DNA of 36,621 bases from Mycobacterium sp. (GTDB lineage: Bacteria > Actinomycetota > Actinomycetes > Mycobacteriales > Mycobacteriaceae). Position numbers and translations under genes: made by a program. The notes under the pieces were generated by a model that was not told where the DNA came from, did no database searches, and saw nothing but the letters and a program-made list of their open reading frames with translations. Positions 7,783-23,159 of this stretch are shown one piece after another. Each line of letters opens with the position of its first letter. Position 1 is the stretch's first letter. The stretch is taken from NCBI GenBank assembly GCA_025965975.1, contig JAOPVX010000097.1, positions 1-36,621 of the forward strand, read 5' to 3'.

Positions 7783-8412
7783 TCAGGACTCGCCGTCGCA
7801 CAGCTCGATTAGCCGACTCGCGGTCCACGCCGGGGTAACGCCGGGGGCACGCAACAGATAGCGCGCCCGCTCGTCGGCGGTCCAGCCGAACGCCTCGCCG
7901 AGTCCCTCGAGCATGGTGCGAAGGTAGGGCGCCGACGGCGGTGTCGGCTCGAGATCCAGCAGGCACGTGATCGTAAACATCGGCACGCCGGCCCGGTCAC
8001 CCACATGCAGGAGCGTCTCATAGGTGTCAGACGGAAGTGCCCATTGCCCGTCGGCTCCGCCAGTCAAGGCCAGGTCGGCATCGACTGGGCGCCAGACTTC
8101 CTGGGCGACAACATCACTCAGCTGTCCGAAGGTGAGCAGGTACGCCCGCGCCGCCAGCTCGCCGTCGGCATGCGGGTTATAGAACGCGATACCCCCGCCC
8201 CACACCTTGGACCTGCCCGCAAAGGCGACGCGGCCTATCAGATGTACTCCGACGTCCCCCTGCGGTGGTGACTGGTTACGGCATCCCAGGTAGGTACGAC
8301 TGCCGCCGCGGGGCCGTCCGCCGGAGATATAGCAATCGAAACGCGCCGCGCACATATTCGATCCGTAGGCCACGTACCAGACCAGATCCTCGGTTCCTAA
8401 ACGCAGGCTCAA
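7783..8412 (-). CDS. Gamma-glutamylcyclotransferase-fold protein
   Basis: 209 residues, last gene of the minus-strand operon. The N-terminus holds WYVAYGSNM (YGSN at 16-19), the phosphate/substrate loop that defines the gamma-glutamylcyclotransferase (GGCT) fold; members cleave gamma-glutamyl groups by cyclising them to 5-oxoproline. GGGIAFYNP and ARAYLLTFGQLSDVVAQE follow. Related actinobacterial proteins are, from memory, often labelled histone deacetylase, which nothing in this sequence supports. I could not assign the catalytic glutamate with certainty. The start is probably TTG at 8412, overlapping the ATP-grasp stop (TTGA); the next ATG would delete the YGSN loop. Coupling to an ATP-grasp ligase suggests the two act on the same amide- or gamma-glutamyl-linked product (inference). 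Confidence 0.75.
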   Translation of the reverse strand: MSLRLGTEDLVWYVAYGSNMCAARFDCYISGGRPRGGSRTYLGCRNQSPPQGDVGVHLIGRVAFAGRSKVWGGGIAFYNPHADGELAARAYLLTFGQLSDVVAQEVWRPVDADLALTGGADGQWALPSDTYETLLHVGDRAGVPMFTITCLLDLEPTPPSAPYLRTMLEGLGEAFGWTADERARYLLRAPGVTPAWTASRLIELCDGES

Positions 8413-9998
8413 CCGACGACGGATCCTTCCTCGAGCGCCAGCTCAGCCTCTCGCAGGAGCACGGACTGTGCCTCCGCGTAGATCTGCTGGGCATGTGCGG
8501 GGGAGTCTCCGACGGCGGTCAGCCCGACGCGACCACACTCGGTCAGGCAGCTGATCATGTGGAACACCACCCCGGTCCGGCGGGACTGGTCGAAATGCAG
8601 GCCGTGGTCGACGACGATGTCGAAGAGGTCCGTGACGGTCAGGCCCTTGAGCCGTTCGTCCTCGAGGTGGTCGGTCGCGACCAGGTACTTGGCGCTGCCA
8701 GTTGGGGTCAGGAAGACTCCATGCTCGCCGTCGTAGCTCCCGTCGGTCAGGAACTGCAGGGTCAGGAACGGATGAGTGGTCCCGCCCTTGCGCAGATTCA
8801 GCTCGATCGCGTACGGCGTCCACGCGCCGCTCTCGTCTTGCACCACAACGAAATCCACCGCGAAGCGGCCGAGCGTGCCGAGCTCCGCAAGACGCTGTCC
8901 GATCACCATAGCGGGCTCGGCGATGGCCGCGGCATAGGCGGGATCCGCAGGAAACACGCAGCCGAGGTACTTCTGTCCGCTCTTACCGCCGAGAAGCTGG
9001 TCGTGGGTGGACAGCAGCTCGACGGTGCCGTCCGGCAGTGCCCGCATCTGGACACTGGGACTGGTCAGCGCCACTCCGGTGATCCGTTCCTCGACGATGC
9101 CGCCGTGTTCCTCGAACGCGGCGAGATAGACGTCGAGAGCGAGGTTGTCGGCCTCCAGTTGCATGCCGAGGATGCGCTCAGCGATCGCCGCCGCCTCGTC
9201 CGGCGAACCCGAGGGCGGCAGTCCGCGCAGGTCCACCATGGCATTACCGGATCCCGAGACTCCCTCGTTGAGCTTCACGATCGCCTGACTCAGCGATGGT
9301 CGTCGTAATCGCATGCGCTGCACGCCGGCCACGATGTCGTCGACCGTGTGGAGGTCCTCCACGCCGACCGGGCACTGCACCCCCAACTCCTCGAACATCC
9401 GGCGGCAGCCGGTCTTGCTGCCGAGATCGGCCAGCCGGGGATCCGCGCCGTACATGGGGATACCGAGGGACAGCGCGACGTCGCGTTCCAGCGGTGTGGT
9501 GTTGTACGGGATCAGGTGACTTCGGTCGGGGTTGGGGATCAGGGACCGGATCTGCCGCAACAGCTTTGGTCGCGCCAGCAGCTTAGAGCTGAGCGAGCCC
9601 GGCGACGCGTCGCCGATCGGGATCAGGATGAGGCGGGCACGGGCGTGGCGCGGTATCACGCCGGGGAGCAACCCGAGGTAGTACTCCACGATCGATTCCG
9701 AGATCGGCTGCGAGGTCACGTAGATCATCCGTAGCCGCGGTTGGCGGAGCAGCAGCAACAGGAACAGCGCGCGTTCCTCCAAGGCCTGCGTGACGGTGCC
9801 GCTCTTGGGAGTTGGGCCCTCGATGCTGATCGAGGGTACGACGACGACGGATTCGTCGTCGAAGCCGAGCCGCATCGATTCCCATACGGTCGGCATCGCC
9901 CGTTGCAACTTGTCGAAGACGCGGAACCGCTCGTCTTCGCCGAGGTGCGACAGCGGCCGACCCGCGCCTCGGTGGTCGGGAGCCTGTAGTTGTGTCAT
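8409..9998 (-). CDS. ATP-grasp ligase, PGM1-related (carboxylate-amine/peptide ligase)
   Basis: 529-residue ATP-grasp enzyme, expected to activate a carboxylate as an acyl phosphate and join it to an amine. I recognise the family related to PGM1, the peptide ligase of pheganomycin biosynthesis. An N-terminal Rossmann-like part (about 40-200) has LRMIYVTSQPISESIVEYYLGLLPG and LGIPMYGADPRLADLGSKTGCR. The ATP-grasp core follows: the lysine and glycine-rich loop VKLNEGVSGSGNA (K242, E245), IVEERITG, and the metal-binding IELNLRKGGTTHP (E399, N401). These residues are present, so it should be active. The C-terminal part carries DQSRRTGVVFHMIS. The ATG at 9998 overlaps the cyclase stop (ATGA); the frame stays open upstream inside the cyclase gene without family similarity. 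Its substrates cannot be read from sequence. Confidence 0.85.
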   Translation of the reverse strand: MTQLQAPDHRGAGRPLSHLGEDERFRVFDKLQRAMPTVWESMRLGFDDESVVVVPSISIEGPTPKSGTVTQALEERALFLLLLLRQPRLRMIYVTSQPISESIVEYYLGLLPGVIPRHARARLILIPIGDASPGSLSSKLLARPKLLRQIRSLIPNPDRSHLIPYNTTPLERDVALSLGIPMYGADPRLADLGSKTGCRRMFEELGVQCPVGVEDLHTVDDIVAGVQRMRLRRPSLSQAIVKLNEGVSGSGNAMVDLRGLPPSGSPDEAAAIAERILGMQLEADNLALDVYLAAFEEHGGIVEERITGVALTSPSVQMRALPDGTVELLSTHDQLLGGKSGQKYLGCVFPADPAYAAAIAEPAMVIGQRLAELGTLGRFAVDFVVVQDESGAWTPYAIELNLRKGGTTHPFLTLQFLTDGSYDGEHGVFLTPTGSAKYLVATDHLEDERLKGLTVTDLFDIVVDHGLHFDQSRRTGVVFHMISCLTECGRVGLTAVGDSPAHAQQIYAEAQSVLLREAELALEEGSVVG

Positions 9999-11836
9999 GT
10001 GCCTGCCTGTCTTTCGTGTAGTGCACTGATGTTGTGGACCCGCACCGAGCGGCTGAATCCCTTGGGCTGCACGTCGCCGACGACTTCCGATTCGCATAGG
10101 TGCTCGATGGGCGCGAGCACGCGGTCGGTGACCAGTACCTGCCAGGGGCGTGCATCGGCACACAACCGCGCGGCCAGATTCGTCACGCTGCCGATCGCCG
10201 CGTAGTCGAAGCGGCCTTCGAAGCCGATCCTGCCGAGTGTCGCGAAGTTTTGGGCGATCCCGATTCCAAGGGCGAGGTCGTTCCCGTTGCGAAGCCAGCG
10301 GTCGGCGAGCGCGTGCACCGCGTCGCGGATGTCTAACGCCATTCGGACGGCACGCTCGGCCGGATCGTCGCACGGGATCGGGTCGTTGAAGAACACCATG
10401 ACGCCGTCACCGGTGAATCGCTCGAGTGTGCCGCCGTGTTCGTGCACCCGCGCCCCGATGGCCCGGTGATACTCGCGTAGCACTCCCATCACCTCCTCGG
10501 GCTCGCTGGCCTCGGCGAATGGGGTGAAGTTCCTGAGGTCGGTGAAGACAACGACTATCTCGCGGCGGTGGCTCTCCAGTAGCGTCTCGTCGCCAATGAC
10601 GAGATCGGCAAGCTGCGGTGAGAGGAATCGGCGTAAGCGGTTGGCGCGGTCGAGCTCGGCCACCTGGTGAGCGACTCGGGACTCGAGTTCGGTGTTCCAG
10701 CTCGCGAGCTCTCTGCTCTTGGTTTCGACCTCCCGGAACAAGCGCGCGTTGACGATGGCCAGCGCCGACTGACTGGCGAATGTCTGAAGAAGCTCGGTCA
10801 CGTCGGGGGGGAAGTTGCCTGTGCCTCGGCGGCGGATCACCAGCACACCGAGCATCTGTTCGCCGCCCAGGATGGCAACCGCCAGCACCGAGCGCCATCC
10901 GTCGCGGAACAGGATGTCCAGATAGGGATCGCGCTCCGCGTTGGCAAGGTCAGGAATCTCGAAAGGCTCGTGGGAGCCGGCGGTCCGACCGATGAGGGTC
11001 GACTCGCTGCCGATCGTGATCGCCTGCAACTGCTGAAGCAGGTCGTGGCTGCTGCCGAAAGCGTGGACGCGGAACGAGTCGCTCGCCTCGTGGTATTCCA
11101 GGATTGATCCGCCGTCGGTTCGCAGGGTGATGTCGCCGAAGCCGAGGTTGGTGAGCCGCACCGCGTTGCTGACGATGCGTTCCAGGACCTCATCGAGGTC
11201 CAGGCTCGAGCCGACCGCCTCGTCCACCTCCTGCAGCGCCTCGAGCTGCGCCACCTTGTTCGCCAGCTCGGTCCGTCGGGACTCGAGTGCACGCATCAGG
11301 TTGACCTGCCGCAAGACGATCGCGGCCTCTACGGCGAATTCTTCGAGGAGTGCGCGTTCGCGATCGTCGAACGGCGCCACGTCGGTGCGCCACATGGAGA
11401 GCACGCCGACGACCTCGTCCTGCAGCAGCATCGGCGTTGAGAGCAGGGTGCGGAAACCGGTGGCGCGCTGAAGGTCGCGCCGTCCATAGTCCGCGTCGGC
11501 GAGCACGTCGGGTATCTGGACCGTGCACCTGTCTTCGGCCGCGCGCCCGACCGTCGACGAACGGTTCCTAGCGATCGGCTGCTCCATCAGGTGTCGGCGA
11601 TAGTCCTCCGGGGTCTCGCCGGCGACCCGCGAGAGACGGAACACGTCACCGTCGAGGAGGAACAGTTGGGCTGCGCGCGCTCCGCACAGCCGCGCCGCGT
11701 ATTCGAGAACGGTGTCAAGGACTGCCCCGGGGTTGGCGACGTCGCGGCCGAGAGCCGCAAGAATCTCGCGGCTCGCTGCCGACTGCTCACGCGCGTCACG
11801 CAGCTCGTGGTCTGCATCGTCGGTCGGATCAGTCAC
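9995..11836 (-). CDS. GAF-GAF-class III nucleotidyl cyclase
   Basis: Predicted soluble adenylate/guanylate cyclase of 613 residues. GAF 1 lies at about 35-185 and GAF 2 at about 200-370. A coiled coil (VETKSRELASWNTELESRVAHQVAELDRANRLRRF, shown by ends about 372-406) leads to the class III cyclase domain at about 425-600. Both metal aspartates are present (VFTDLRNFT, D433; RFTGDGVMVFF, D477), and the transition-state Asn and Arg are in VTNLAARL. The two substrate-specifying positions are unusual: R473 aligns with the usual Lys, and A546 (DYAAIG) replaces the usual Asp/Thr. Substrate choice is therefore uncertain. GTG at 11836 overlaps the FHA gene by eight bases. In this operon it could turn kinase output or a GAF ligand into a second messenger (inference). 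Confidence 0.88.
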   Translation of the reverse strand: MTDPTDDADHELRDAREQSAASREILAALGRDVANPGAVLDTVLEYAARLCGARAAQLFLLDGDVFRLSRVAGETPEDYRRHLMEQPIARNRSSTVGRAAEDRCTVQIPDVLADADYGRRDLQRATGFRTLLSTPMLLQDEVVGVLSMWRTDVAPFDDRERALLEEFAVEAAIVLRQVNLMRALESRRTELANKVAQLEALQEVDEAVGSSLDLDEVLERIVSNAVRLTNLGFGDITLRTDGGSILEYHEASDSFRVHAFGSSHDLLQQLQAITIGSESTLIGRTAGSHEPFEIPDLANAERDPYLDILFRDGWRSVLAVAILGGEQMLGVLVIRRRGTGNFPPDVTELLQTFASQSALAIVNARLFREVETKSRELASWNTELESRVAHQVAELDRANRLRRFLSPQLADLVIGDETLLESHRREIVVVFTDLRNFTPFAEASEPEEVMGVLREYHRAIGARVHEHGGTLERFTGDGVMVFFNDPIPCDDPAERAVRMALDIRDAVHALADRWLRNGNDLALGIGIAQNFATLGRIGFEGRFDYAAIGSVTNLAARLCADARPWQVLVTDRVLAPIEHLCESEVVGDVQPKGFSRSVRVHNISALHERQAGT

Positions 11837-12455
11837 CAGGCCGCCTTTCGGACTTCACGACGGTGATCGTGGTCCACGCGCCAACGTGGACACGATCGCC
11901 GTCGGCGAGTTGGATCTCCTCGCCGTTTACCAGGAAGTCGTCGCTGTCGTTGAGGCTGGTTCCGTTGGTCGATCCCAGGTCGGTGATCGTCAGACCGGCG
12001 TCGCGGACCCGCAGCACCGCGTGTTGTGTGGATACGCCGCGGTCGGCTGGGTGGATGCCGAGGTCGATCTCGGGTTCCACGCCCTGGTCGCGGTTATGGC
12101 GTCCGATCAGTGCGTTGTCGCGCACGGTGATTCGGCGCTCGGGGAAGAACTCCGGGAATTCGACCGTGTCCGGGCCTCCGCTGGCGAGGACGCGTTCGTA
12201 GAACTCCCGGTCGGCGGCGACGACCGCGGTCCATCCGACGCTCTGTGGTGCGCTCGGTGACGGCGCTGGCACCGCCGAATCGTGTCCACACTCCTCGCAG
12301 AAGCGACCGGTGATCGGTGCCTGGCACGCCGGGCATGCCGTCACGCCGGCTGGCGGTGACGAAGTCGGTTGTGGTGCAGCCATTCCGATCGGTGACCCGC
12401 ACACGTCGCAGTAGTCCTCGGCCGCTGAGACGTGTCCGTCGGGGCAAGTCGGCAT
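11829..12455 (-). CDS. Double zinc-ribbon FHA-domain protein
   Basis: 208 residues. Two short zinc ribbons occupy the N-terminus: one with YCDVCGSP (C16, C19), the other with ACPACQAP and FCEECGHD (C41, C44, C53, C56). A Pro/Ser-rich linker (about 60-72) leads to a FHA domain at about 112-200. Its phosphothreonine-binding elements are in place: IGRHN (R119), GVSTQHAVL (S142, H145) and DLGSTNGTSLN (N164, G165). FHA domains bind phosphothreonine, so this is the likely reader of the neighbouring kinase, in the way GarA serves PknG. I see no GarA-like ETTS phosphorylation motif at the N-terminus. The ATG at 12455 shares one base with the vWA stop (TGATG). Confidence 0.88.
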   Translation of the reverse strand: MPTCPDGHVSAAEDYCDVCGSPIGMAAPQPTSSPPAGVTACPACQAPITGRFCEECGHDSAVPAPSPSAPQSVGWTAVVAADREFYERVLASGGPDTVEFPEFFPERRITVRDNALIGRHNRDQGVEPEIDLGIHPADRGVSTQHAVLRVRDAGLTITDLGSTNGTSLNDSDDFLVNGEEIQLADGDRVHVGAWTTITVVKSERRPGD

Positions 12456-13753
12456 CAGGGCTCCTTCCGCACTCGGACGGTTCTCGTCGAGCGTGCATCG
12501 AGGGCCATCTCGTCTGCCGCGGCGATCTGGGGTCGCAGCCGAGCCGTGCCGGTGTGCTCATCGACGTCGATGAATCGCTTGAGCAGCCTGGCTGTGGGGT
12601 CATGGCCCGATTCGACGGCGAGATCCAATGCGCGCTTCAGTTTCGCTGTTGCAATCTCGACGTCGCCGTTTTCGCGTGCACTCAACCCGTCCTGAATCGC
12701 CTGCGCCAGCTCTGCCTGGCCCGTATAGTGCGCCACGCGCCGGCTGATCTGCGCGCACAGCGCCGAGTCGGCCGTCCACATCGCCGTCATGAGCCCTTCG
12801 CCAAGGATCTCGTCCCCGGCGACGACAGTCACTCGGGCGGCCAGCTTCTCCCGTCCGACCCCCGCGGGTTCGACCTCGACCTGAACGTGGTAGTCACGCT
12901 CTTCGGTGCCCCACGCGCCAAGCGGGTATTCGCTGCGCTGATTTCCCGCGTCGACCCGCCGGTGGGTCAAGTCCTCGACGGTCGGCGCGACTTGCTTGAC
13001 GAACACGATGCGCGCGCTCGCCGGCGTCCATAGGCGCAGGGTCAGCGCCGGAATCGACCTACCCATCGATGCGCGCACCATCGCCGCGAAATCGTCGGCG
13101 AGATCGGCGGGATCGGCCACGATGTCCACGGTGCCCAGCAGAGCCGAGGAGATCGCCCGCAGTTCATCGACGCGCCAGTCGGTGCCGACTCCGCGACAGT
13201 CACAGCTGAATTGCCCCTCGCTCAGCGCGATTTCGCGCTGCAACTCGTCGGGGGTTTCGTGCTCATCTTTGCCGTCGGTGAGCAGAATCGCGTGGGTGAT
13301 AGCTTGTGGGTGCTGTCCGGCGATGCCGCGGACGTGAGCCAGCCAGGTGCCCATCGCGGTGCCACCTTCTGGCCGCAGACCGTCGAACGCGCGCGCGGCG
13401 GCCGCCCTGGTCGCAGCATTCGCCTGCGTCGGGGATCCGTCGGCTGGGTAGACAGGGCGCGCCTTGTTTGTCCCGGCGACGATTGTGAAGAAGGTGCCGT
13501 CGAGCAGTTCGTTGACCGCGGCGGTGGCGGCACGTTTGGCGGCCTCGAACTTGTCCACAGGTGTCAGCATCGAACTCGAGCAGTCGATGATGATCGCCTC
13601 GACCCGTTGCGGCGGTTCGACCGTCGTCGCGATGTCGCTTCCGGCGGCGATGGAGATGATCGCATCGAGTGTCCCGGCACCCTCGGCGAGATAGCGATTG
13701 TGATCGACGTCGACGGAAATACCGGAAATACCATGGTGCTCAGCCGAACTCAT
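12455..13753 (-). CDS. von Willebrand factor A domain protein
   Basis: 432 residues with no signal peptide or membrane segment, so cytoplasmic. A vWA domain at about 50-230 has a complete metal-ion-dependent adhesion site: DCSSS (D57, S59, S61), T132 in GGTAMG, and D160 in LLTDGKD. The rest is a beta-rich region (about 230-330) and a helical C-terminus (about 335-400, with AIQDGLSARENGDVEIATAKL). Such proteins are cytoplasmic scaffolds that often sit beside PP2C, FHA and kinase genes. Its start (13753) overlaps the phosphatase gene by 14 bases. Its partner is unknown. No MoxR ATPase or effector gene is present, so the well-known vWA-MoxR pairing does not apply here. Confidence 0.9.
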   Translation of the reverse strand: MSSAEHHGISGISVDVDHNRYLAEGAGTLDAIISIAAGSDIATTVEPPQRVEAIIIDCSSSMLTPVDKFEAAKRAATAAVNELLDGTFFTIVAGTNKARPVYPADGSPTQANAATRAAAARAFDGLRPEGGTAMGTWLAHVRGIAGQHPQAITHAILLTDGKDEHETPDELQREIALSEGQFSCDCRGVGTDWRVDELRAISSALLGTVDIVADPADLADDFAAMVRASMGRSIPALTLRLWTPASARIVFVKQVAPTVEDLTHRRVDAGNQRSEYPLGAWGTEERDYHVQVEVEPAGVGREKLAARVTVVAGDEILGEGLMTAMWTADSALCAQISRRVAHYTGQAELAQAIQDGLSARENGDVEIATAKLKRALDLAVESGHDPTARLLKRFIDVDEHTGTARLRPQIAAADEMALDARSTRTVRVRKEP

Positions 13754-14768
13754 GAAGCCCTCCGATCGGTATCACTGCGACAGTGACGTTGTCGTGGCCG
13801 CCGGCCTGCAGCGCATAGTCGACCAGCGCGCGCGCTGCCGCGGTTGGGTGCGTCCCGGTGCAGAACCGCGCTATGTCGTCGGCGTTGGGGAGGTAGTTCC
13901 ACAGCCCGTCGGTGCACATCACCAGGGAGCCCGGTCCGGCGGCGGTGATGGTGTGCACGCTGGATTCCGACCATGGCGTCGATTCGGCGTCCGCGCCGAG
14001 CCAACGGGTCAAGGTGTGCGCTCCGGCGTGCACGGCTTCCGAGTCGGCCGCAACACCGGCGGTGATGAGTTCCTGCGCCAGGGAGTCGTCGACGGTCAGC
14101 CGTTGGGCAGGCGCAGGCGGTTCGGGCAGCCAGTACACCCTGCTGTCGCCGACATTGCCGACGCTGATCTGCACCGTCCCCGTGGAGGTCCGAACGACTG
14201 TGGCCGCGGTGTAGGTGCATGACGGCGCGCTTGACGGATCCGTTCGCGCCGCCGCCGCCGCCTTCGCCGCATCGCCCAGCCCCGCCATCACCGCCGAGCG
14301 GGCCTTGCGGGAGGCTGCCAGTGCGGTAAGCATCGCATCTACACCGGCGGTCGAGGCCGCAACCGCGGCATTACGCGCATCACCGGAGGTGGAGACCCCG
14401 TCGCAGACAGCAACGGCTATCGCGTGGGGCCGCTCGCCGTCGCCGCCCGCCACGATCCCGGCTGCGGCGGCGTCCTCGTTGCGGACGTGTTCGAGACCGC
14501 GGTCGCTGATCAGCACGATCCCGGCGATTTCCATCTGATCGCGATCGGGCTCGGCGCGCCGATTACCGCAAACGGTGCAGTACTCGCCAACATGGGTCTT
14601 GTTGCCGCAGTCGGCGCAGGGTTCATCCGGACTCTCGGTGGCTCTCCGCGATCGAGGTATGGCGACTCGGCGGACCTCGGACAAAGGGGCGCCGCAGTTC
14701 TCACAGAACCGGTCGGTGCGCTGCACACTGGAAGCGCACCGCACACATGTCGCGACCGTCCCGCTCAT
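13740..14768 (-). CDS. Zinc-ribbon PP2C-type serine/threonine phosphatase
   Basis: 342-residue metal-dependent protein phosphatase. Two zinc-ribbon pairs come first: CVRC (C8, C11) with FCENCGAP (C22, C25), then CADC (C51, C54) with YCTVCGNR (C64, C67). The PP2C domain occupies about 82-340. Its metal-binding residues are all present: RNED (D99), VCDGVS (D123, G124), CTDGLW (D287) and GGHDN (D326); GNVGDSRVY is the usual central block. The ATG at 14768 overlaps the kinase stop (ATGA). The longer open frame upstream runs inside the kinase gene and adds no recognisable sequence. It is the obvious antagonist of the kinase encoded just upstream in the operon. Confidence 0.92.
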   Translation of the reverse strand: MSGTVATCVRCASSVQRTDRFCENCGAPLSEVRRVAIPRSRRATESPDEPCADCGNKTHVGEYCTVCGNRRAEPDRDQMEIAGIVLISDRGLEHVRNEDAAAAGIVAGGDGERPHAIAVAVCDGVSTSGDARNAAVAASTAGVDAMLTALAASRKARSAVMAGLGDAAKAAAAARTDPSSAPSCTYTAATVVRTSTGTVQISVGNVGDSRVYWLPEPPAPAQRLTVDDSLAQELITAGVAADSEAVHAGAHTLTRWLGADAESTPWSESSVHTITAAGPGSLVMCTDGLWNYLPNADDIARFCTGTHPTAAARALVDYALQAGGHDNVTVAVIPIGGLHEFG

Positions 14769-16963
14769 GTCCTGGTCCTCGGGCGAATCGTATTTGCCTT
14801 CTGCACCAACGCGATTCGCTCCCACATGTCGGTTGTATCGTGCGCAAGGGCGCGGTAGCACAGTTCCATTCCGGTCCGGATGCCGCGTTCGTCGAAGTCG
14901 GCGCCGAGCAGCCGCGGAGCCTTGGGTGCCTTCCCGGCGCGTAGCCACTCCAGTGCGGCGGCGAATACTCGCAGCCGGATCCCCGCCCGCTTGGCTGCTG
15001 ATTCCAGGGTCAATGCCGAGACGCGCTGATCGGCATCGACGAGCGTGTGCTCGTCCAGGCTGTCGGGTTTGCGCCCGTCGAGCAGGATCTCGATCGCGGT
15101 CGTGCCGGCTGGAGCGGAGTACGCCGTCGCGACGGGCACCCGGTCCAGCGCCGCTATCGCGTCGGCCCGGTTTCCCGCCCGCGCACGCTGCCTCGCGAGC
15201 CCGAATGCGGCGCTGACGTAGCTGTCATCTGTTCGCCACACCGTCTCGTAGTAGCGTTCCGCGTCAGCGCGGGAGCCGCGGAGTTCGGCGGTGGCCGCGA
15301 TCGCCACTTTGGGCGGGAGCTCTCCGGGCAGCGCGGCCAGCACTTCGTCGAAATCGGCGGCGGCCTTGTCGAAATCGCCTTCGAGCAGCGCGCATTGGCC
15401 GCTGTACCACGGCAGCCGCCAGTCTCCCGACAGCTGGGGACTCAATTCGGCAAGCCGCGTACGGGCGTCCGCGGGCGCACCGGTTTGCAGCGCAGCCCGG
15501 ACGAGGCGCAGCGGCACTTCGATGGAGGAACTGGTGCCTTGGTGCGCGCCGCTCCTGGCGAGTTTCAGCGCGTATTCGAGTTGGGCGGGTGGTGTGCCGC
15601 TCGTGGTGGCGAGTATTGCGGAGCCGGGGTCGTTCGGGTCGACGACGGGAACCGACAAGGCCGCGATCACCTCAGCGGGATCGATCGCCAGGTTCCGCCC
15701 CGCTCCGTAGACACCGCGCTGCGGGCTGAAGTGGTTTGACTTCTTGGGCGGCAAGGTCGCGCCGTCGGCGGCCGCGATCTCGTGCAGCACCCCGGTCAAT
15801 TGGTCGGCCATCTCCTCCATGGACGCGAATCGTCGTTGCGGTTCGGGGTCGGTAGCGCGAACGATGGCGCGATAAAGAGATTCGTGCTTCGCGAGTACCG
15901 GCGTGGTTGTGGGTCCGGGTAGCTGCTCGACGAATCGGCCGTTCTGCTGCGGGACGTCCATCACGAGAACGGCAAGTGTGCGCCCGACCGCGTACACGTC
16001 GGTGGCCACGGTGGCGCCGGTCCGGACGATCTCGGGTGCCAGGTAACCCGGGGTGCCGAAGATCGTGCTGTCGTCGTCGTCCATGGCGACGACGGCGCCG
16101 AGGTCGATGAGCTTGAGTTGCTCGTCGCTCTGCATCACATTGTCGGGTTTGAAGTCGCAGTAGGCGAATCCCTGCTCGTGCAGGTAGCCGAGTGCCGGTG
16201 CGATCTCGACTATGTAGGCGACGGCCCAGTCGGGAGGCAGGGCACCGTTGTTGGCTTTGCGGATCTGCTTCAGCGATGTTCCGTCCACGTATTCCATGAC
16301 TATGTAGCCGACTGGTATTCCGTCGGCGTCCACGTGCTCGACGAAGTTGTAGACCGAGACGATGTTGGGGTGTTGCACTCGGGCGAGGGCATGGGCTTCG
16401 GCAGCGGCGGTGGCCATGGCATCGGCATCGGCAGAGTTCACCAACCCCTTGAGCACCACCCAGCGGTTGTCCAACTTGCGGTCGATTGCCAAGTAGATCC
16501 AGCCGAGCCCGCCATGGGCGATACAGCCCTGCACCTCGTACTGGCCACCGACGAGGTCGCCGTGAGAAAGCTTGGGCACGAAGGAATATCGCGTACCGCA
16601 CTGCGTGCAGAAGCCCTGGGTCCGTCCCGGCGGTCCGTCGCCTCCACGTCCGACGGGCTTGCTGCATTGGGGGTTGCCGCAGAACCGGTGACGTTCCGGC
16701 ACCTGTGGATTGGTCAAGATCGCTGCGGCAGGGTCAGCGCGCGGTATGCGCGGTATCGCGACGACCCCCGCACCGAGGCGACCGCGTGCGCTGGCGGGAC
16801 TCGACGACTCGTTGCGCGCCGGTCGCCCTGATGGGTCGGGTGATCCGAGCGGTTGCGTCGCGGCAGGCAAGCTCTGTGGCGTAAAGGTTGCGGGCGCGGT
16901 CCCGCAGATGTCGCAGTAGCCGGCGACGACGGTTCCAGCGCACCCCGGTTCAGCGCAGCTCAT
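14765..16963 (-). CDS. PknG-like serine/threonine protein kinase with zinc ribbons and TPR tail
   Basis: 732 residues, close to the 750 of M. tuberculosis PknG and with the same architecture. An extra N-terminal zinc ribbon (CAEPGC with YCDICG) precedes a rubredoxin-like site: FCGNPQC (C95, C100, spacing CX4C instead of the CX2C I recall in PknG) plus CTQC (C119, C122). The kinase domain (about 140-390) has GCIAHGGLGW, VVLKG (K172), YCDFKPDNV (D270, K272) and IDLGAV (D287, with DLG replacing DFG, as in PknG). The C-terminal helical/TPR region spans about 440-730. Catalytic residues are intact. PknG adjusts glutamate metabolism through the FHA protein GarA; here GlnX- and GlnH-like genes lie upstream and a FHA gene downstream. 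It is a paralogue by context, since the usual pknG locus lies elsewhere in mycobacteria. ATG at 16963 overlaps the preceding stop. Confidence 0.92.
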   Translation of the reverse strand: MSCAEPGCAGTVVAGYCDICGTAPATFTPQSLPAATQPLGSPDPSGRPARNESSSPASARGRLGAGVVAIPRIPRADPAAAILTNPQVPERHRFCGNPQCSKPVGRGGDGPPGRTQGFCTQCGTRYSFVPKLSHGDLVGGQYEVQGCIAHGGLGWIYLAIDRKLDNRWVVLKGLVNSADADAMATAAAEAHALARVQHPNIVSVYNFVEHVDADGIPVGYIVMEYVDGTSLKQIRKANNGALPPDWAVAYIVEIAPALGYLHEQGFAYCDFKPDNVMQSDEQLKLIDLGAVVAMDDDDSTIFGTPGYLAPEIVRTGATVATDVYAVGRTLAVLVMDVPQQNGRFVEQLPGPTTTPVLAKHESLYRAIVRATDPEPQRRFASMEEMADQLTGVLHEIAAADGATLPPKKSNHFSPQRGVYGAGRNLAIDPAEVIAALSVPVVDPNDPGSAILATTSGTPPAQLEYALKLARSGAHQGTSSSIEVPLRLVRAALQTGAPADARTRLAELSPQLSGDWRLPWYSGQCALLEGDFDKAAADFDEVLAALPGELPPKVAIAATAELRGSRADAERYYETVWRTDDSYVSAAFGLARQRARAGNRADAIAALDRVPVATAYSAPAGTTAIEILLDGRKPDSLDEHTLVDADQRVSALTLESAAKRAGIRLRVFAAALEWLRAGKAPKAPRLLGADFDERGIRTGMELCYRALAHDTTDMWERIALVQKANTIRPRTRT

Positions 16964-18081
16964 TTCGTCCTCCGCTGCTTGTCGGCGAGCATCTGCTGAT
17001 ATTCCGTGATCGCGCGGGTCGCCGCAGGAAGATCGCAGGGTCGTCGTGACAGCAGGCCGGATGCGGCCCGGCCGGACGACATCAGGTCTGGATCCTTGCC
17101 AAGGCCGAGGCGTGCCGCCTTGGCCTGGTATGCCGTCAGTCGGCCGCGGAGTTCGCGGCGCCGGTCGAGCAGGCCCTGCGCGAGTTCCTCCTCGTCACGC
17201 ACGAGTTTCAGAGCCGACTCGATCAGGTGCTGCAGCGATCGCAGCGCCGCCGCGTCGGGTGTGTCGATCGACCGCAGGCGGGCGCGGAGGCTGGGTTCGG
17301 CGTCGGTGTGCATCGCAGGCAGGCCTGGCACCACGGCTTCCTTGGCGCGTGCACGAGTCTGAGCCACGTGCTGTGTCGCGTCCCTCAGCGCATCCAGACG
17401 TGAGGCCGTCGCAGCCACCGCCTCGGGCCAGTTCGCCTGAAGTGCAGCCAACTTGCCGATTACGAGGACGCGTTCTTCGACGTCGTGCGCGGTGAGGGAG
17501 AGGGGATCGCTCGCCGAGACCTGCAACAGGTCGGTGCTCTCCGTCGGAATGGTGCCGCCCGGTTCGTCGAGCCGTTTCAGCACCGGTGCGAGCCCTGCCG
17601 CGGTAAGGCAGTTGATCTTGTCGACGGCGTCGAGAAACTCGGCCACGGCCGGGTAGGCGTCACGCATCCGATCCGTCGTGTCGGGGAGGCCGGCATGATC
17701 GGTTGCGTCATCGGACCCGGCGATCATGTGCTGCGCCAGCGGGTTTCGCTGCCGCCAAACGTCGGGTGCACGATCACGCAGCAGTCCCGTCAGCTCAGCG
17801 CGGTCGAGGTCATCGAGCTTCGATCGGCGCTCCCGCACCGCCCGCGCGGATTGCAGAATCGACGTCATCCATCCCATGCCCTCCCACAGCTGTCCGATCG
17901 ATTCCTCGACGGGCACCCACCGCTGCGCTGTCACCCCGGTCGGCGGATAGCGACGCACGTGCTCGAGGCCGGGGTGGTTGTCCAGTTCCAGTAACGCCGC
18001 TGCGAATGAAGCGACTTCCGCTGTGCGGGTGGCGAGTTCGCGATCGATTTCGTCGGCTGTCAGAACATTCAGAACATTCAC
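16960..18081 (-). CDS. Unrecognised helical protein between GlnH-like and PknG-like genes
   Basis: 373 residues of no family I recognise. It is almost wholly predicted alpha-helical, rich in Ala, Leu, Arg and Glu. Likely coiled-coil stretches are at about 8-35 (ADEIDRELATRTAEVASFAA), 205-245 (around LAALQANWPEAVAATASRLD) and 285-330 (around EEELAQGLLDRRRELRGRLT). There is no signal peptide, membrane segment or catalytic motif. The start is probably GTG at 18081, overlapping the stop of the GlnH-like gene (GTGA); the first residues, MNVLNVL, contain a short repeat. Its place between the extracytoplasmic sensor and the kinase suggests an adaptor that passes the signal to the kinase. That is inference from position only. 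Confidence 0.8.
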   Translation of the reverse strand: MNVLNVLTADEIDRELATRTAEVASFAAALLELDNHPGLEHVRRYPPTGVTAQRWVPVEESIGQLWEGMGWMTSILQSARAVRERRSKLDDLDRAELTGLLRDRAPDVWRQRNPLAQHMIAGSDDATDHAGLPDTTDRMRDAYPAVAEFLDAVDKINCLTAAGLAPVLKRLDEPGGTIPTESTDLLQVSASDPLSLTAHDVEERVLVIGKLAALQANWPEAVAATASRLDALRDATQHVAQTRARAKEAVVPGLPAMHTDAEPSLRARLRSIDTPDAAALRSLQHLIESALKLVRDEEELAQGLLDRRRELRGRLTAYQAKAARLGLGKDPDLMSSGRAASGLLSRRPCDLPAATRAITEYQQMLADKQRRTK

Positions 18082-19055
18082 GGTTGGTCCTGATACCGCG
18101 GTGGCGGAGGACCAGGTGACGGCCCGAGGCTACTACTCAGCCACGTCTGGTAGATGCGTTCCCACGTTCCGTCGACCCGCATCCGATCGAGGGCACCGTT
18201 GACGAATCGAACCAGGTCCCCGTTCTCCTTCCTGATCCCGATGCCGTACGGCTCCTTCCCTAAGCTGGGACCGACCACCGCCACGTTCGGGTCCTGTTTG
18301 ACAAGCCCGGCCAACACCGCATCGTCGGTACTGACGGCATCGACCTGCCCCTGTTGCAGCATCACCAGACAATCGGTCCAGTTGGCCGCACCGACCACGA
18401 TGGGCTTGGGGTTCAGCGCGAGCAACGTCGGCAGTGAGGTCGTGCCCGATACCGCACACACCCGTTTGCCGCCAAGTGCCGCGGCAGAATCGATTCCCGA
18501 ACCCTTCACGGAGAGGATCTTTTGGTATGCGTCGTAGTACACCGTGGAAAAGGCCACGGTGTTCTTGCGCTCACAGGTGATTGAGTAGGTCCTGACGACC
18601 AGGTCAACCTGCCCCGAGGTCAACGCGGACTCCCGGTCTCTCGCGTCGACAACCCGCAGATCGATGCGGTCCGGATCACCCAAGATGGCGCGTGCGATCT
18701 CGCGGGCGAGGTCGATGTCGAATCCCTCCACACGATCCGTTGACGGATTCCGGAAGCCCCATAATTCGGTGTTCTGGTCCACTCCAACGATGAGTCGTCC
18801 GCGCTCGGCGATCGCCGCCATCGTCGAACCCGGCGGCATGGCACCCGGCGCAGGCTGCGGGCCGGGCCGCAGGCTGGCTTCGCGGTCGCAGTCCGTATTG
18901 CCGACAGCTGGCGGTGCGCTCGTAACCTCCGGCGCATCAGCAGGTTTGGCCTCGACCGGTGCGACCGTCACCGGTGCTGGCGGCGGCGGTGATGATCCAC
19001 AACCGGCGCCGATGAATGCACATGCCGCCAGCGCTACGACAACGTGTGCGTTCAT
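18078..19055 (-). CDS. GlnH-like amino-acid-binding lipoprotein
   Basis: 325-residue periplasmic substrate-binding protein of SBP family 3 (polar amino acids). The N-terminus has a lipoprotein-type signal; two cysteines could be lipidated, C12 (LAAC) or C20 (GAGC), followed by a Pro/Ala-rich linker. The binding domain (about 90-305) has LIVGVDQNTELWGFRNP, EGFDIDLAREIA, TSGQVDLVVRTYSITCERK and QGQVDAVSTDDAVLAG, all typical of Glu/Gln/Asp-binding proteins. There is no ABC permease or ATPase nearby, so it works as a sensor, not in uptake, as GlnH does for PknG. The ATG at 19055 overlaps the GlnX-like stop; the longer frame upstream lies inside that gene and lacks a signal peptide. Confidence 0.88.
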   Translation of the reverse strand: MNAHVVVALAACAFIGAGCGSSPPPPAPVTVAPVEAKPADAPEVTSAPPAVGNTDCDREASLRPGPQPAPGAMPPGSTMAAIAERGRLIVGVDQNTELWGFRNPSTDRVEGFDIDLAREIARAILGDPDRIDLRVVDARDRESALTSGQVDLVVRTYSITCERKNTVAFSTVYYDAYQKILSVKGSGIDSAAALGGKRVCAVSGTTSLPTLLALNPKPIVVGAANWTDCLVMLQQGQVDAVSTDDAVLAGLVKQDPNVAVVGPSLGKEPYGIGIRKENGDLVRFVNGALDRMRVDGTWERIYQTWLSSSLGPSPGPPPPRYQDQP

Positions 19056-20323
19056 AAGAACTCCTTGAGCCGCGGCCACAAGCCGGTGACTGCCGCCGCC
19101 GCCGCGACCACCATCAGCACAACCGACCCCGTGGGACTCCACGACAGTGCTATGCCTGCCGCCGAGACGCGGTCGCGCAGCGTGGCACGGGCGTGCTCGA
19201 TCTCGCTGCTCAAGCTGGATTCGACAACGGCGTACTGCGCAGCCGAGGCATCCGGATCGGGACCGATCGCCTGCGCGACTGCAGCCGGGTAGTCACCGCC
19301 AAGGTAGGCCTCGACCTGCTTACGGTGGCTCTCGGTCCATTTCCGCAGACCTTCGGCCGCAGCGGGCGGGCCCGCGCCAAGTGCCGTGGCCAGTTCGTCG
19401 ATGTGGCCGTAGAAATCCTTCTCGCCGGCTGTGAGGTCGCCGTGCGCGATGAGTTCAAGGGTTTCGTCGGTCCGAGCCTTGCTGGCGAGGATGCGGGCCT
19501 TTGCGAGCTGACCGAACCTGGTGGTCCCCTCGATTCGGCCGTGCTCGATATCGCCGACCGCGAAACGGGTGGCCACCACGATCCAGACGATGGCCACTGA
19601 CACCACAGCCGCCGCGACGACGAGCCCGATGTTGAACTGCCGGTTCGTGCGGGCGAGCATGATCGCCGAGGCGATGCCTATCGCAGCCAGGACCAGCCCC
19701 AACAGCACGAGGCCGACCGTCGGAGCTGATGCGACGCCGCGCTGGTCTTCATCGACCGAGCGAAGATCGGCGGCGTGGATCTTCTCCGCGCCGGGAAGGA
19801 GCTTGGTCTGCATCAACGACGACGCCTCTCGCAGATAGGCAGACCCAAGCGGAAATTGCTGCACGTTGTTGGCCCGTGCAGCCTCGACCAGGCCCGTGTA
19901 CGTGGCCAGTTGTTCAGATATTTCGGCGACCGAAGTGCGGGTATTGGTGTCGGTGGCCCCCGCTGTGGCGTCCGTCAACGCTGATGCCGCTCCGGCCAAG
20001 GCTTGCCGGTATCGAAGCCGCATCGAAGGGGTTTGGATCCCACCGGAAAGGAACGCTGATGCCGCGGCGGCATCGGCCGCCGACAAATCGGCGTACAGGT
20101 TCTGCGCCGCGTTGGTGAACGGCTCGGAACGGTCAAGGACCGCGTTGTGGTGCGCGATCCGCTCGTCTAGCTCGGCTGCACACACTATGCCGGCAACGAT
20201 GCACGTCGCCGCGACGGTGACCGCGACCAGCACGACGACACCCGGCGTCGTGCTGGCGAAGCGTCGCAACCACGCAACCCAAGCGCGCACGTCCCGTGCG
20301 TGAGTGAGGCCCGCCGCGTTCAC
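19052..20323 (-). CDS. GlnX-like four-TM membrane sensor
   Basis: First gene of the minus-strand operon: 423 residues with four hydrophobic segments at about 28-50, 200-222, 233-252 and 400-418. Two extracytoplasmic helical domains lie between TM1/TM2 and TM3/TM4; the first has LYADLSAADAAAASAFLSGG, like four-helix sensor domains of chemoreceptors. This topology and the pairing with a GlnH-like lipoprotein and a PknG-like kinase match GlnX, which relays ligand-bound GlnH to PknG. GTG at 20323 is preceded by a strong purine-rich site (GGGGGGAG, six bases upstream on the minus strand). All nine following genes are translationally coupled to it. Confidence 0.85.
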   Translation of the reverse strand: MNAAGLTHARDVRAWVAWLRRFASTTPGVVVLVAVTVAATCIVAGIVCAAELDERIAHHNAVLDRSEPFTNAAQNLYADLSAADAAAASAFLSGGIQTPSMRLRYRQALAGAASALTDATAGATDTNTRTSVAEISEQLATYTGLVEAARANNVQQFPLGSAYLREASSLMQTKLLPGAEKIHAADLRSVDEDQRGVASAPTVGLVLLGLVLAAIGIASAIMLARTNRQFNIGLVVAAAVVSVAIVWIVVATRFAVGDIEHGRIEGTTRFGQLAKARILASKARTDETLELIAHGDLTAGEKDFYGHIDELATALGAGPPAAAEGLRKWTESHRKQVEAYLGGDYPAAVAQAIGPDPDASAAQYAVVESSLSSEIEHARATLRDRVSAAGIALSWSPTGSVVLMVVAAAAAVTGLWPRLKEFL

Positions 20324-20534
20324 CGTCCAACTCCCCCCGTTTCAGACCAGCTTTCGCCGATGATTAGACTCCGCCAATTGTCGGGCCGGGCAATATCGGG
20401 CAATCGAGTAGTGGACCACTCGAATTTGAGCCGTGCACCACTTGCATGTCGGTGATGACTTGGCAGCCGTTGAACACCTCCGATGACCCACCGATGCGCT
20501 GCGCCACCCGCGCCTGCTCTCTTACGCTGTGAAG
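20324..20534. promoter_or_regulatory. Divergent control region with two GTG-N3-CAC sites
   Basis: This 211-bp gap separates the ten-gene operon from the divergent luxR gene. Two matching sites, GTGGACCAC at 20411-20419 and GTGCACCAC at 20433-20441, have centres 22 bp apart, about two helical turns. The first extends to an 11-bp inverted repeat, AGTGGACCACT. They are candidate operators for the LuxR-family protein. Toward luxR, TACGCT at 20523-20528 is followed by six bases and then ATG at 20535, consistent with a -10 element and a leaderless transcript. On the minus strand TAATCA (complement of 20361-20366) is a weak -10 candidate for the operon. Confidence 0.5.
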
Positions 20535-23159
20535 ATGCAGTTGACGTGGCCGTTTACCGGGCGCATTCGGGAGATGCGGTTCATCGAGGCCGCGGTGTCC
20601 GACCCCGGTCGGTCGGGCATAGTGATCTCCGGTGCGGCTGGGGTCGGTAAGAGCCGCATCACCCGCGAAGCACTCGATTCCGCCGCGTCGAAGGGCTGCG
20701 AGGCCCGCTGGGTGGTGGGCACGTCTTCGGCGCGAGGACTTCCGCTCGGCGCGCTGGCTTCGTGGGCTGGGTCGGTCGGCACCGACAGTCTCCACCTTGT
20801 GTGCGGCGTGATCGACTCGCTCACCGCCGGTTCCGCGGACACCACGGTAGTCGTGGGTGTTGACGACGCGCACCTGCTCGATGACCTGTCTATCTTCGTG
20901 TTGCATCAGATCGTGCAGCGGGGGGCCGCGAAGGTGGTACTCACAGTCCGTGAAGGTGAACCGATTCCCGTTGGGATACAGGAACTTTGGAAAGACGGTC
21001 AGTTCGACCGCCTTGATTTGCAGCCGTTGTCGACCGACGACACCACCGCACTGCTGTCGGCCACGTTGGCCGGATCACTGGATCCGCCGGCTGCCGACCG
21101 ACTGTGGCAGCTGACCCGCGGCAACGCACTGTATCTGCGCCACATCGTCGAGCAGGAGGTCGCCGATGGTCGGCTCGAAAATCAGCGTGGGTCTTGGCGG
21201 TGGATCGACGATCCGATCGTGCCAAGTGGCCTTCTCGATTTGATCGAGTCCCGCATTGGAGCCCTCCCCATGGCAGTCGGCTCCGTCATAGACACCCTCG
21301 CGATCGGCGAGCCTATCGAGTTGGGAGCGCTGCGACGCATCACCGAGCCGGGGGCCGTTGAAGAAGCCGACACCCGTGGCCTGATCAGCCTCGAGGACAC
21401 CGATTCCGGCCCGGAAGTCCGTCTGGCGCATCCGCTCTACGGTGAGGTGCGCAGACGGCGCGCGGCGCCCACCAGGCTACGACGGCTGCGTGGACTGGTC
21501 GCCGCCGAACTGGCCGCCGCCGATGATCGCGACGTGCGAGCCACGGTGCGGCGGGCGACGTTGAGCCTCGATTCTGACCTCCCGCCCGATGCCGACCTGC
21601 TCGTCAGAGCAGCTCAAGGCGCTATCTGCGTCGGCGATCTCGCCCTGGCCGACCGGCTCGCGCATGAGGCGGTGCGCGCCGCAGCCGGACCCGAAGCGCA
21701 GTTCATCCGCGCCCACGCGTTGTCGTGGCTGGGCCATGGCCGTGAAGCCGAAGAAGTGCTGGCCGACCTTGCGCTCGACCAACTGACCGAGAACGACCGG
21801 GCCAAATTCACCTATCTGCGTGCCAGCAACATGCTCTGGGCAGTGGGAGACCAAGAGCGCGCGAAAGAGATCATCGACAGCGCGTCGCAGATCACGGCTG
21901 GGAAGGCCCGCACCTGTATCGACGCAGTCAACACTGTGTACTGGTTTGCGACCGATCGGCCCGCCGCCGCCATGCGGGCTTCGCAGGGCCTGGTGTTGGA
22001 CGACCTGCCCGCCATCGTCGGGGCTGAGACAGCATGGGCACTCGCTGCCATCCGCGCGGACGCGGGATGCACGACAGAAGCTGTGGCGATGGTGGACGCC
22101 GGGTACACCGTAGCGACCCGCTGTTCCGACGCTCCGCAGATGAGATTCAACATCGCCGACGCACACATTGGCGCACTCCTGTTGTCCGGTCGTGTCGTCG
22201 ACGCGCTGGAGGTCGCCGAGCGCGTACGTCGCCAGTCAGCCGATCTCCCCGGGGCGGCTCGATTTCTCGGTATTGCCATCGCAGGGAGGGCCGCCCTTGG
22301 TGCCGGCCGCCTCGAAGACGCATGTTCGTTGCTGGGACAGGCAACAGCTGCGTTGTCCGCGTTGGGCCATGCGATGGGCTGGGGATACCGCTATCGCGTC
22401 CCGTACGCGACTGCGCTTGCCATGCGCGGCCTGACTGACGAGGCGGCCGCTGTGCTCTCTGCACTCGACACGCTGCATCGTCCGTTTCGGTCGCTGGACT
22501 ATGAGAGAAGCCTGGCACGCGCCTGGGTGGCGGCCGGCCAAGGCGCCGTCAGTGAGGCGATCACCGTTCTGAAGTCAGCCGCCGAGATGGCTTCGAAGAA
22601 TGGACGATTCGCCGCCGAGGTGGTCTGCTTACAGACGGCGGCGCAGTTCGGTGATCGTTCGTGTGCACCGCGGCTGCGCGAACTCGAAGCGATCGTCGAG
22701 GGGCCTCGTGTCGACCTGGCAGCCCAGTTGGCCGCTGCCGTGCACGATGACGATGCGGCTCAATTGGCAGTGGTCTCGCAAGATTTCGAGGAGTTGCGCG
22801 ACGGTATTGCAGCGGTGGATGCGGCCGCGCTGGCGGCCCTCGTGTACCGCGGCGAGGACTTGCGCGGCTCGGCGTTGGGATGTGCCGCACGGGCAGAAGC
22901 GCTGGCCGAACAGTACGGCGGCGCCGACACCCCGATGCAACGTCAGGCGCGCGAGCCGATGCCGCTGACCGATAGGGAACGCGAGATCGTGTTGCTGATC
23001 GGCCAGGGCTCGTCAAACCGCGATATCGCTGCGCGACTGCACCTGTCCGTTCGCACCGTCGAAGGCCACAATCACAGGGCGATGAAGAAGACTGGTACCA
23101 CCAGCCGCGAAGAGCTTGCGGCGCTGCTGTCTCAGCCGAGGCGCGCCGACGGCGACTAA
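20535..23159 (+). CDS. Large ATP-binding LuxR-family transcriptional regulator
   Basis: 874-residue LAL/MalT-type regulator. The N-terminal P-loop ATPase has Walker A GAAGVGKSR (33-41) and Walker B VVVGVDDAHLL (D110, D111). A long helical-repeat middle region (about 300-780) contains TPR-like segments. The C-terminal LuxR helix-turn-helix (about 811-870) reads LTDREREIVLLIGQGSSNRDI, shown to 20 residues or so, then VRTVEGHNHRAMKKTGTTSR. I choose ATG at 20535 over GTG at 20529 because the homologous remnant at 7629 aligns to MQLTWPFTGR and a possible leaderless -10 fits. It is divergent from the signalling operon and probably controls it. The ligand is unknown. Confidence 0.9.
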   Translation: MQLTWPFTGRIREMRFIEAAVSDPGRSGIVISGAAGVGKSRITREALDSAASKGCEARWVVGTSSARGLPLGALASWAGSVGTDSLHLVCGVIDSLTAGSADTTVVVGVDDAHLLDDLSIFVLHQIVQRGAAKVVLTVREGEPIPVGIQELWKDGQFDRLDLQPLSTDDTTALLSATLAGSLDPPAADRLWQLTRGNALYLRHIVEQEVADGRLENQRGSWRWIDDPIVPSGLLDLIESRIGALPMAVGSVIDTLAIGEPIELGALRRITEPGAVEEADTRGLISLEDTDSGPEVRLAHPLYGEVRRRRAAPTRLRRLRGLVAAELAAADDRDVRATVRRATLSLDSDLPPDADLLVRAAQGAICVGDLALADRLAHEAVRAAAGPEAQFIRAHALSWLGHGREAEEVLADLALDQLTENDRAKFTYLRASNMLWAVGDQERAKEIIDSASQITAGKARTCIDAVNTVYWFATDRPAAAMRASQGLVLDDLPAIVGAETAWALAAIRADAGCTTEAVAMVDAGYTVATRCSDAPQMRFNIADAHIGALLLSGRVVDALEVAERVRRQSADLPGAARFLGIAIAGRAALGAGRLEDACSLLGQATAALSALGHAMGWGYRYRVPYATALAMRGLTDEAAAVLSALDTLHRPFRSLDYERSLARAWVAAGQGAVSEAITVLKSAAEMASKNGRFAAEVVCLQTAAQFGDRSCAPRLRELEAIVEGPRVDLAAQLAAAVHDDDAAQLAVVSQDFEELRDGIAAVDAAALAALVYRGEDLRGSALGCAARAEALAEQYGGADTPMQRQAREPMPLTDREREIVLLIGQGSSNRDIAARLHLSVRTVEGHNHRAMKKTGTTSREELAALLSQPRRADGD

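Follow-up and report, generated by a model that had tools for sequence, protein, structure and literature searches.

A PknG-type signalling module joined to a cyclase and a BesA-like ATP-grasp ligase in a ten-gene mycobacterial operon

As far as the accessible parts of two papers go, work on the kinase PknG centres on the control of GarA/OdhI and on 2-oxoglutarate metabolism (PMC8546545, PMC9769921), and the second of them reports a T-x-S pair of M. tuberculosis GlnH as ligand-binding. One case of a kinase-PP2C-vWA gene trio is described in the accessible part of PMC7159879. The present analysis concerns a ten-gene operon (20323-7783, minus strand, each gene overlapping the next by 1-14 nucleotides) in which a GlnX-family membrane protein is encoded together with GlnH and PknG. 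It lies in a stretch of 36,621 nucleotides (hereafter the window) from an environmental mycobacterium (Mycobacterium sp., GenBank assembly GCA_025965975.1, contig JAOPVX010000097.1). A sequence-only reading had previously listed the ten overlapping genes and their protein types, which were confirmed, and knew of no described function for the full set; our literature search (titles and abstract starts) likewise turned up no description of this set, nor any paper combining PknG with ATP-grasp. Judged from its relatives, the operon is a composite of two separable, often joined modules and not one indivisible set. On balance, we consider it probable that a ligase, perhaps a gamma-glutamyl ligase, is under the control of an Asp/Glu-sensing module acting by Ser/Thr phosphorylation and is accompanied here by a possible cleaving enzyme, the two modules being joined in one operon. 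Gene content, overlaps, motifs, module joining, a cyclase fusion and an upstream dyad, all detailed below, are established by the sequence.

Module 1 comprises GlnX, GlnH, a helical protein, a PknG paralogue, a PP2C phosphatase, a vWA protein and a zinc-ribbon FHA protein:

19052..20323, minus strand: gene 1, GlnX-family signal transducer with four transmembrane segments (NF058618, 381.5 bits against a cut-off of 250; four hydrophobic segments)
18078..19055, minus strand: gene 2, GlnH-like Asp/Glu-type binding lipoprotein (E-value 1.1e-87 to M. tuberculosis GlnH, 6h1u)
16960..18081, minus strand: gene 3, helical protein without Pfam or NCBIfam family (model with a predicted local distance difference test score of 88)
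14765..16963, minus strand: gene 4, PknG paralogue with an extra N-terminal CxxC element, rubredoxin, kinase and TPR (domain and motif scan)
13740..14768, minus strand: gene 5, PP2C phosphatase with a double zinc ribbon (Pfam/NCBIfam and motif scan)
12455..13753, minus strand: gene 6, vWA protein with MIDAS-type motifs (domain and motif scan)
11829..12455, minus strand: gene 7, zinc-ribbon FHA protein (domain and motif scan)

The motifs with established catalytic or binding roles are intact in the PknG-type kinase, PP2C, FHA and vWA proteins, and in alignment gene 2 retains the T-x-S pair of M. tuberculosis GlnH. CxxC motifs occur in PknG, PP2C and FHA of all 16 mycobacterial modules scanned and, among eight loci scanned outside mycobacteria, in PknG (8/8), PP2C (five of the seven with a match) and FHA (7/8). 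Gene 3 is retained in module 1 of mycobacteria and of some other actinomycetes; a Foldseek search with its predicted fold gave nothing at an E-value of 0.001 or better. Gene 1 fails the canonical GlnX equivalog (NF041460, 223.7 against 780 bits), and the identification of gene 7 as GarA/OdhI was rejected (NF041660, 26 bits against a 200-bit cut-off).

The three remaining genes are:

9995..11836, minus strand: gene 8, GAF-GAF-class III cyclase, an in-frame fusion (domain scan, alignment to relatives)
8409..9998, minus strand: gene 9, BesA/PGM1-like ATP-grasp ligase (Pfam, NCBIfam, alignment to 8yi6)
7783..8412, minus strand: gene 10, GGCT-fold protein with YGSN and an invariant Glu105 (predicted fold and motif)

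In relatives, module 2 consists of a GAF-GAF-HisKA-HATPase-REC kinase, an optional lone REC, a REC-cyclase and a BesA/PGM1-like ATP-grasp ligase. Gene 8 matches the GAF pair of the relatives' histidine kinase over residues 1 to ~367 (70%) and, from residue ~370, the coil and cyclase of the REC-cyclase (65-67%). Compared with locus L016, which stands here in place of the true ancestor, ~1.5 kb is absent in frame from the window; the HisKA, HATPase and receivers found in relatives are absent, and near full-length matches to the histidine kinase and the REC-cyclase are present in all 20 other loci with this region in view. The kinase part that is missing has no close counterpart elsewhere in the genome (best 31%). 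An assembly artefact as the source of the fusion is not supported: the junction is in frame, its flanking blocks are 76% and 78% DNA-identical to L016, no off-diagonal match of more than 15 bases touches it and the missing part has no close copy. Judged from this alignment, the window has lost the kinase and receiver domains of module 2, leaving the GAF-GAF-cyclase fusion. Counted without kinship correction, the lone REC is absent from all 13 loci other than the window that have a kinase module directly upstream and present in the other seven (L022, L023, L024, L031, L032, L039, L040).

Class III cyclases depend on metal-binding aspartates and an Asn-Arg transition-state pair, and select adenine by a Lys/Thr pair. 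Aligned to CyaB (3r5g), gene 8 keeps the metal Asps and the Asn-Arg pair (FTDLR, TGDG, VTNLAAR). The second-messenger arm of the sequence-only reading needs one amendment: relatives drive the cyclase through a histidine phosphorelay, which is no longer present in the window. The genome carries eight more cyclase-domain matches (27-37% identity).

The prevalence of the two modules was assessed mainly with the ligase as query. This search gave 22 named loci in the genome collection, 18 from Mycobacterium/Mycolicibacterium (L016-L032, L036) and four from Gemmatimonadetes and cyanobacteria (L033, L034, L035, L037). At an E-value of 1e-40 the ligase was found in 10 of 200 genomes of the order and in nine of 198 of the genus, the window's own included in both, these genome sets partly overlapping the named loci. 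In a 32-row ligase tree, 23 rows including the window form one clade (Shimodaira-Hasegawa-like approximate likelihood ratio test, SH-aLRT, 100), and the rows nearest to the window are L016 (M. moriokaense) and L017. Twenty clade loci show 2 kb or more of upstream sequence, and 16 of them have parts of the kinase module ahead of the cyclase-ligase block, a count which, the ligase being the query, is silent on kinase modules without ligase. The 20 do not include L025 and L038, whose contigs begin at the ligase or within the receiver-cyclase, or L040, with 0.4 kb of upstream sequence. Where two collections contained one and the same genome, it entered the count once; L098-L103 and L105-L109 duplicate or lengthen other loci, L160 holds a further part of the L019 genome, and L023 and L038 are kept as two of the 23 rows.

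The joining takes several forms. Ten loci show the full form as far as their available sequence reaches (the window, L016-L021, L026, L030, L036), GlnX being seen in the window and, through extra stretches, in L018, L021, L026 and L036; only PP2C, vWA and FHA are in view in L019, the rest of its module being on another contig (L160). Four loci have a short form with GlnX-GlnH-PknG directly before the histidine kinase (L027, L028, L029, L104), and two have a LuxR gene between FHA and the histidine kinase (L022, L031). The sequence-only reading would have been refuted had kinase and enzyme modules never co-occurred elsewhere; this refutation fails, the two being joined in 15 loci besides the window. 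Its picture of the ten genes as one full set holds for the joining in 16/20 loci and fails in that the modules also occur apart and that the GGCT gene is rarely intact. The write-erase-read switch with its own sensor that it had described is well backed, at the sequence level, by a PknG writer, a PP2C eraser, FHA/vWA readers and the GlnH T-x-S motif; the notion of one complete ten-gene system has to give way to two modules that are often joined yet separable, plus a further regulator and, in this genome, a reduced cyclase.

The cyclase was found in exactly the same nine of 198 genus genomes as the ligase, and since both occur in identical genomes they form a firm pair. The vWA gene occurs in 15 of the 198, among them seven of the nine with the ligase (Fisher p 1.0e-7, uncorrected for relatedness). 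The two other ligase genomes (G416, G427) have a GlnX-GlnH-PknG set whose kinase falls in the module clade, the set of G416 stopping at the contig end. Three genomes (G437, G512, G514) carry the seven module 1 genes followed by a different histidine kinase. At the class level, a vWA relative was found in 36 of 197 genomes, the window's own included; the 13 loci fetched, from 12 genomes, contain PknG (13/13), FHA (11), PP2C (10) and GlnX (7), counted as matches at the search threshold. None of these 13 loci contains the cyclase-ligase block, L089 and L090 having a receiver-only match elsewhere in the stretch. Judging from these gene orders, module 1 is also found on its own, with no enzyme genes attached, both in further mycobacteria and, with varying composition, in actinomycetes of other groups. 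Seven loci (L018, L020, L021, L036, L156, L175, L176) have a ~464-residue histidine kinase after the ligase or, in those lacking the ligase block, after FHA; it looks as if this kinase were another exchangeable partner.

The ligase contains a PGM1_C domain (49.5 bits, cut-off 22.5) and aligns with 8yi6 over residues 74-514 (5.7e-33), sharing VDFVV and E-x-NLRK, which belong to the Mg-binding D/E/N segment. The 8yi6 record is named L-propargylglycine--L-glutamate ligase (BesA). The GGCT-fold protein matched no curated Pfam or NCBIfam GGCT model up to an E-value of 0.1 in 14 members. Amide chemistry is a plausible output of the operon on these likenesses, and by analogy the pairing of a BesA-like ligase with a GGCT-fold protein suggests the making and breaking of a glutamyl amide, which would fit an Asp/Glu sensor. 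In L038 the GGCT gene is split in two frames and in the near-identical L023 it is absent (99% identity over 2458 nucleotides), as if it were being lost. The ligase relative of L033 (Gemmatimonadetes) adjoins genes for a glutamate/leucine-type dehydrogenase and an M28 peptidase, and distant relatives from other families of the order (L041, L042) adjoin carrier-protein-bearing genes.

Several results weigh against control of the ligase by module 1, or against the chemistry proposed: (i) no kinase module is in view upstream of the ligase block in four of the 20 loci (L023, L024, L032, L039), with only 2-3 kb upstream in view in L023 and L039; (ii) eight of the 15 genus genomes with the vWA gene have no ligase, two of them (G386, G440) being ~70% complete and the contig of G440 ending inside a histidine kinase located after FHA and LuxR; (iii) the two modules of G436 are on different contigs; (iv) the ligase scores 125.2 bits against the 750-bit cut-off of the BesA equivalog; (v) the cyclase has atypical base-choosing residues relative to CyaB (Lys to Arg, Thr to Ala); and (vi) the GGCT gene is intact in only six of the 23 ligase loci (window, L016, L017, L022, L025, L031), so that, on gene content, make-and-break is not the core function. 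The first alternative holds that the modules are co-transcribed neighbours joined by chance and by selection for compact islands, the kinase having its targets elsewhere and the cyclase-ligase pair acting independently. Both modules do exist apart, as in G436, and module 1 stands without the enzymes in all 13 class-level loci; against this, joining has occurred repeatedly in several arrangements (FHA or PknG next to the histidine kinase, LuxR in between) and the modules co-occur across the genus. We regard such independence as possible but rather unlikely.

The sequence-only reading missed a regulator gene running divergent from glnX and a conserved dyad before glnX:

20529..23159, plus strand: divergent ATPase-LuxR regulator (Pfam GerE; AAA below cut-off)
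20407..20420, no strand: candidate LuxR operator, variant of the dyad AGTAGTGCACTACT (alignment and mismatch search)
20429-20442, no strand: weaker copy of the dyad (mismatch search)

Nine further loci have a LuxR relative adjacent to the cluster or module. In five of them (L027, L029, L104, L107, L160) it diverges from glnX, in three (L022, L031, L151) it separates FHA from the histidine kinase, and in L016 it lies on the downstream side of GGCT. The dyad was found by aligning six divergent regions. L027, L029 and L109 (the L104 genome) carry it without mismatch, and it is present within three mismatches in all seven other luxR-side regions, three of which (window, L107, L160) belonged to the alignment that suggested it and four of which did not. 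Two of 300 shuffled palindromes also reached 7/7, roughly the number expected to do as well as the original by chance, and no match within three mismatches was found in 233 kb of unrelated loci. Against the dyad, single three-mismatch matches lie away from luxR in L026, L030, L032, L039 and L150, and one of the window's three matches is inside a gene, the chance expectation for the window being 0.28. Judged from its placement, the LuxR-type regulator probably controls transcription from the dyad between luxR and glnX.

BesA makes a gamma-glutamyl bond and acts in a natural-product pathway. PGM1 likewise acts in one, according to the accessible part of PMC8939145, and the locus could accordingly be a small specialised-metabolite locus in which LuxR and the sensors switch on a ligase making a secreted or protective gamma-glutamyl or peptide compound. 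LuxR and dyad travel with the locus, and two of the four distant ligase relatives with chosen neighbours scanned adjoin carrier-protein-bearing genes. The operon, however, is without another biosynthetic enzyme and its signalling content is heavy, and we see this alternative as conceivable, albeit rather doubtful.

Under the favoured reading of two coupled modules, we infer ligand, phosphorylation targets, ligase substrate, coupling and regulation as follows. GlnH and GlnX would sense an acidic amino acid outside the cell and set the activity of the PknG paralogue, which would write phospho-Ser/Thr marks that PP2C erases and the FHA and vWA proteins read; the zinc ribbons common to PknG, PP2C and FHA may dock the three together. 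Module 2 would be the output unit, its GAF-gated cyclase making a cyclic nucleotide and its BesA-like ATP-grasp ligase joining an amino acid (likely glutamate, by an amide bond) to an amine, and the GGCT-fold enzyme could cleave the ligase product in this genome. In relatives the histidine phosphorelay would feed the cyclase; because the relay is deleted in the window, the cyclase would be left with two inputs, module 1 and the binding of small molecules to the GAF pair. The LuxR-type regulator would act on transcription from the dyad between luxR and glnX.

A bolder version, which we advance tentatively and think unlikely as a whole, is an undescribed type of signalling in which an amino-acid sensor and a Ser/Thr switch are plugged into, and here replace, a histidine relay over a cyclase and a glutamate-amide ligase, a gamma-glutamyl make-and-break cycle reporting outside glutamate/aspartate. 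The series of arrangements (kinase, lone receiver and receiver-cyclase; receiver-cyclase only; no relay) could show Ser/Thr phosphorylation taking over from a histidine relay; if so, its steps would be represented by the 13 other directly joined loci, which lack the lone REC, and by the window, from which the entire relay is missing. More generally, a paralogous PknG with a whole module of its own recurs in actinomycetes and is here joined to candidate output enzymes. What else PknG-type sensing controls is directly testable, because module and candidate outputs share one operon.

The PknG rubredoxin model matched all 98 genus genomes scanned, and the genome of the operon has three PknG copies. 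In a 47-row tree (quick search, midpoint root, some rows on long branches), the module kinases group together (24 rows, SH-aLRT 100), and a second clade (SH-aLRT 99) unites the genus-common type (three rows, including C405 of this genome) with a second, three-gene paralogue (seven rows, including its C363). Gene 4 as an orthologue of the genus-common type was rejected, as it falls in the separate clade with SH-aLRT 100. "Canonical" is used here as a label for the type common in the genus. The PknG paralogue might simply duplicate the canonical route and act on GarA/OdhI and 2-oxoglutarate metabolism, as the GlnX-GlnH-PknG order and motifs matching the known system would allow; given its separate clade, an FHA protein of its own that is not GarA-like and a genus-common PknG encoded elsewhere in the same genome, we find this quite improbable. 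The second GlnX-GlnH-PknG paralogue of the genome (L005, C363) is followed ~1 kb downstream by same-strand genes of wax ester synthase/DGAT and glycerol-3-phosphate acyltransferase-like type, and these lipid-type genes are a possible output of another PknG-type system.

An anti-phage system with a signalling cyclase, Pycsar-like, is highly implausible: in PADLOC, PycC is matched by the cyclase domain with at most 63.5 bits and PD-T4-6 models by the kinase with at most 148.9 bits, but among the matches listed for the eight proteins scanned (for the kinase, the best 25 of 33 families) only the kinase and cyclase domains are covered and no Pycsar effector appears. That the operon contig is a contaminant is argued against by era, whose one match in the assembly at an E-value of 1e-30 is on this contig; the contamination estimate of the assembly is 4.6%. 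Elsewhere in the window (2136-4193), phoH carries an intein-like insert with a LAGLIDADG match over the cut-off and a Hom_end-associated Hint match below it.

Compared with the GlnX-GlnH-PknG-GarA/OdhI system, the operon begins with matching kinds of component in an unchanged order except for the inserted gene 3, and has an Asp/Glu-type binding protein and the rubredoxin-kinase-TPR architecture. It differs by its separate PknG clade, the extra N-terminal CxxC, gene 3, a dedicated PP2C, the vWA and zinc-ribbon FHA proteins, and by its link to cyclase and ligase genes where the known system has GarA. It shares with kinase-PP2C-vWA trios a zinc-ribbon kinase beside a PP2C and a stand-alone vWA protein, whereas its kinase is PknG-type with GlnX/GlnH, it has an FHA reader and it lacks GTPase and tubulin genes. 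The TerY-P triad consists of a TerY-type vWA protein, a PP2C and a kinase; PADLOC gave nothing for the vWA or PP2C proteins at an E-value of 0.001, and the trio found here is analogous to this triad. The histidine-kinase/receiver-cyclase relays have their counterpart in the relatives of the operon (GAF-GAF-HisKA-HATPase-REC and REC-cyclase), whereas in the window HisKA, HATPase and receivers are lost in favour of a direct GAF-GAF-cyclase fusion. Gene 10 resembles GGCT, ChaC and GGACT in predicted fold, YGSN and invariant Glu, unlike them matching no Pfam or NCBIfam model. Finally, the ATP-grasp ligase shares the E-x-NLRK segment and the PGM1_C domain with BesA (8yi6) and PGM1, and departs from these systems by its score (125 bits against the 750-bit equivalog cut-off) and by its setting among signalling genes, with no further biosynthetic genes in the operon.

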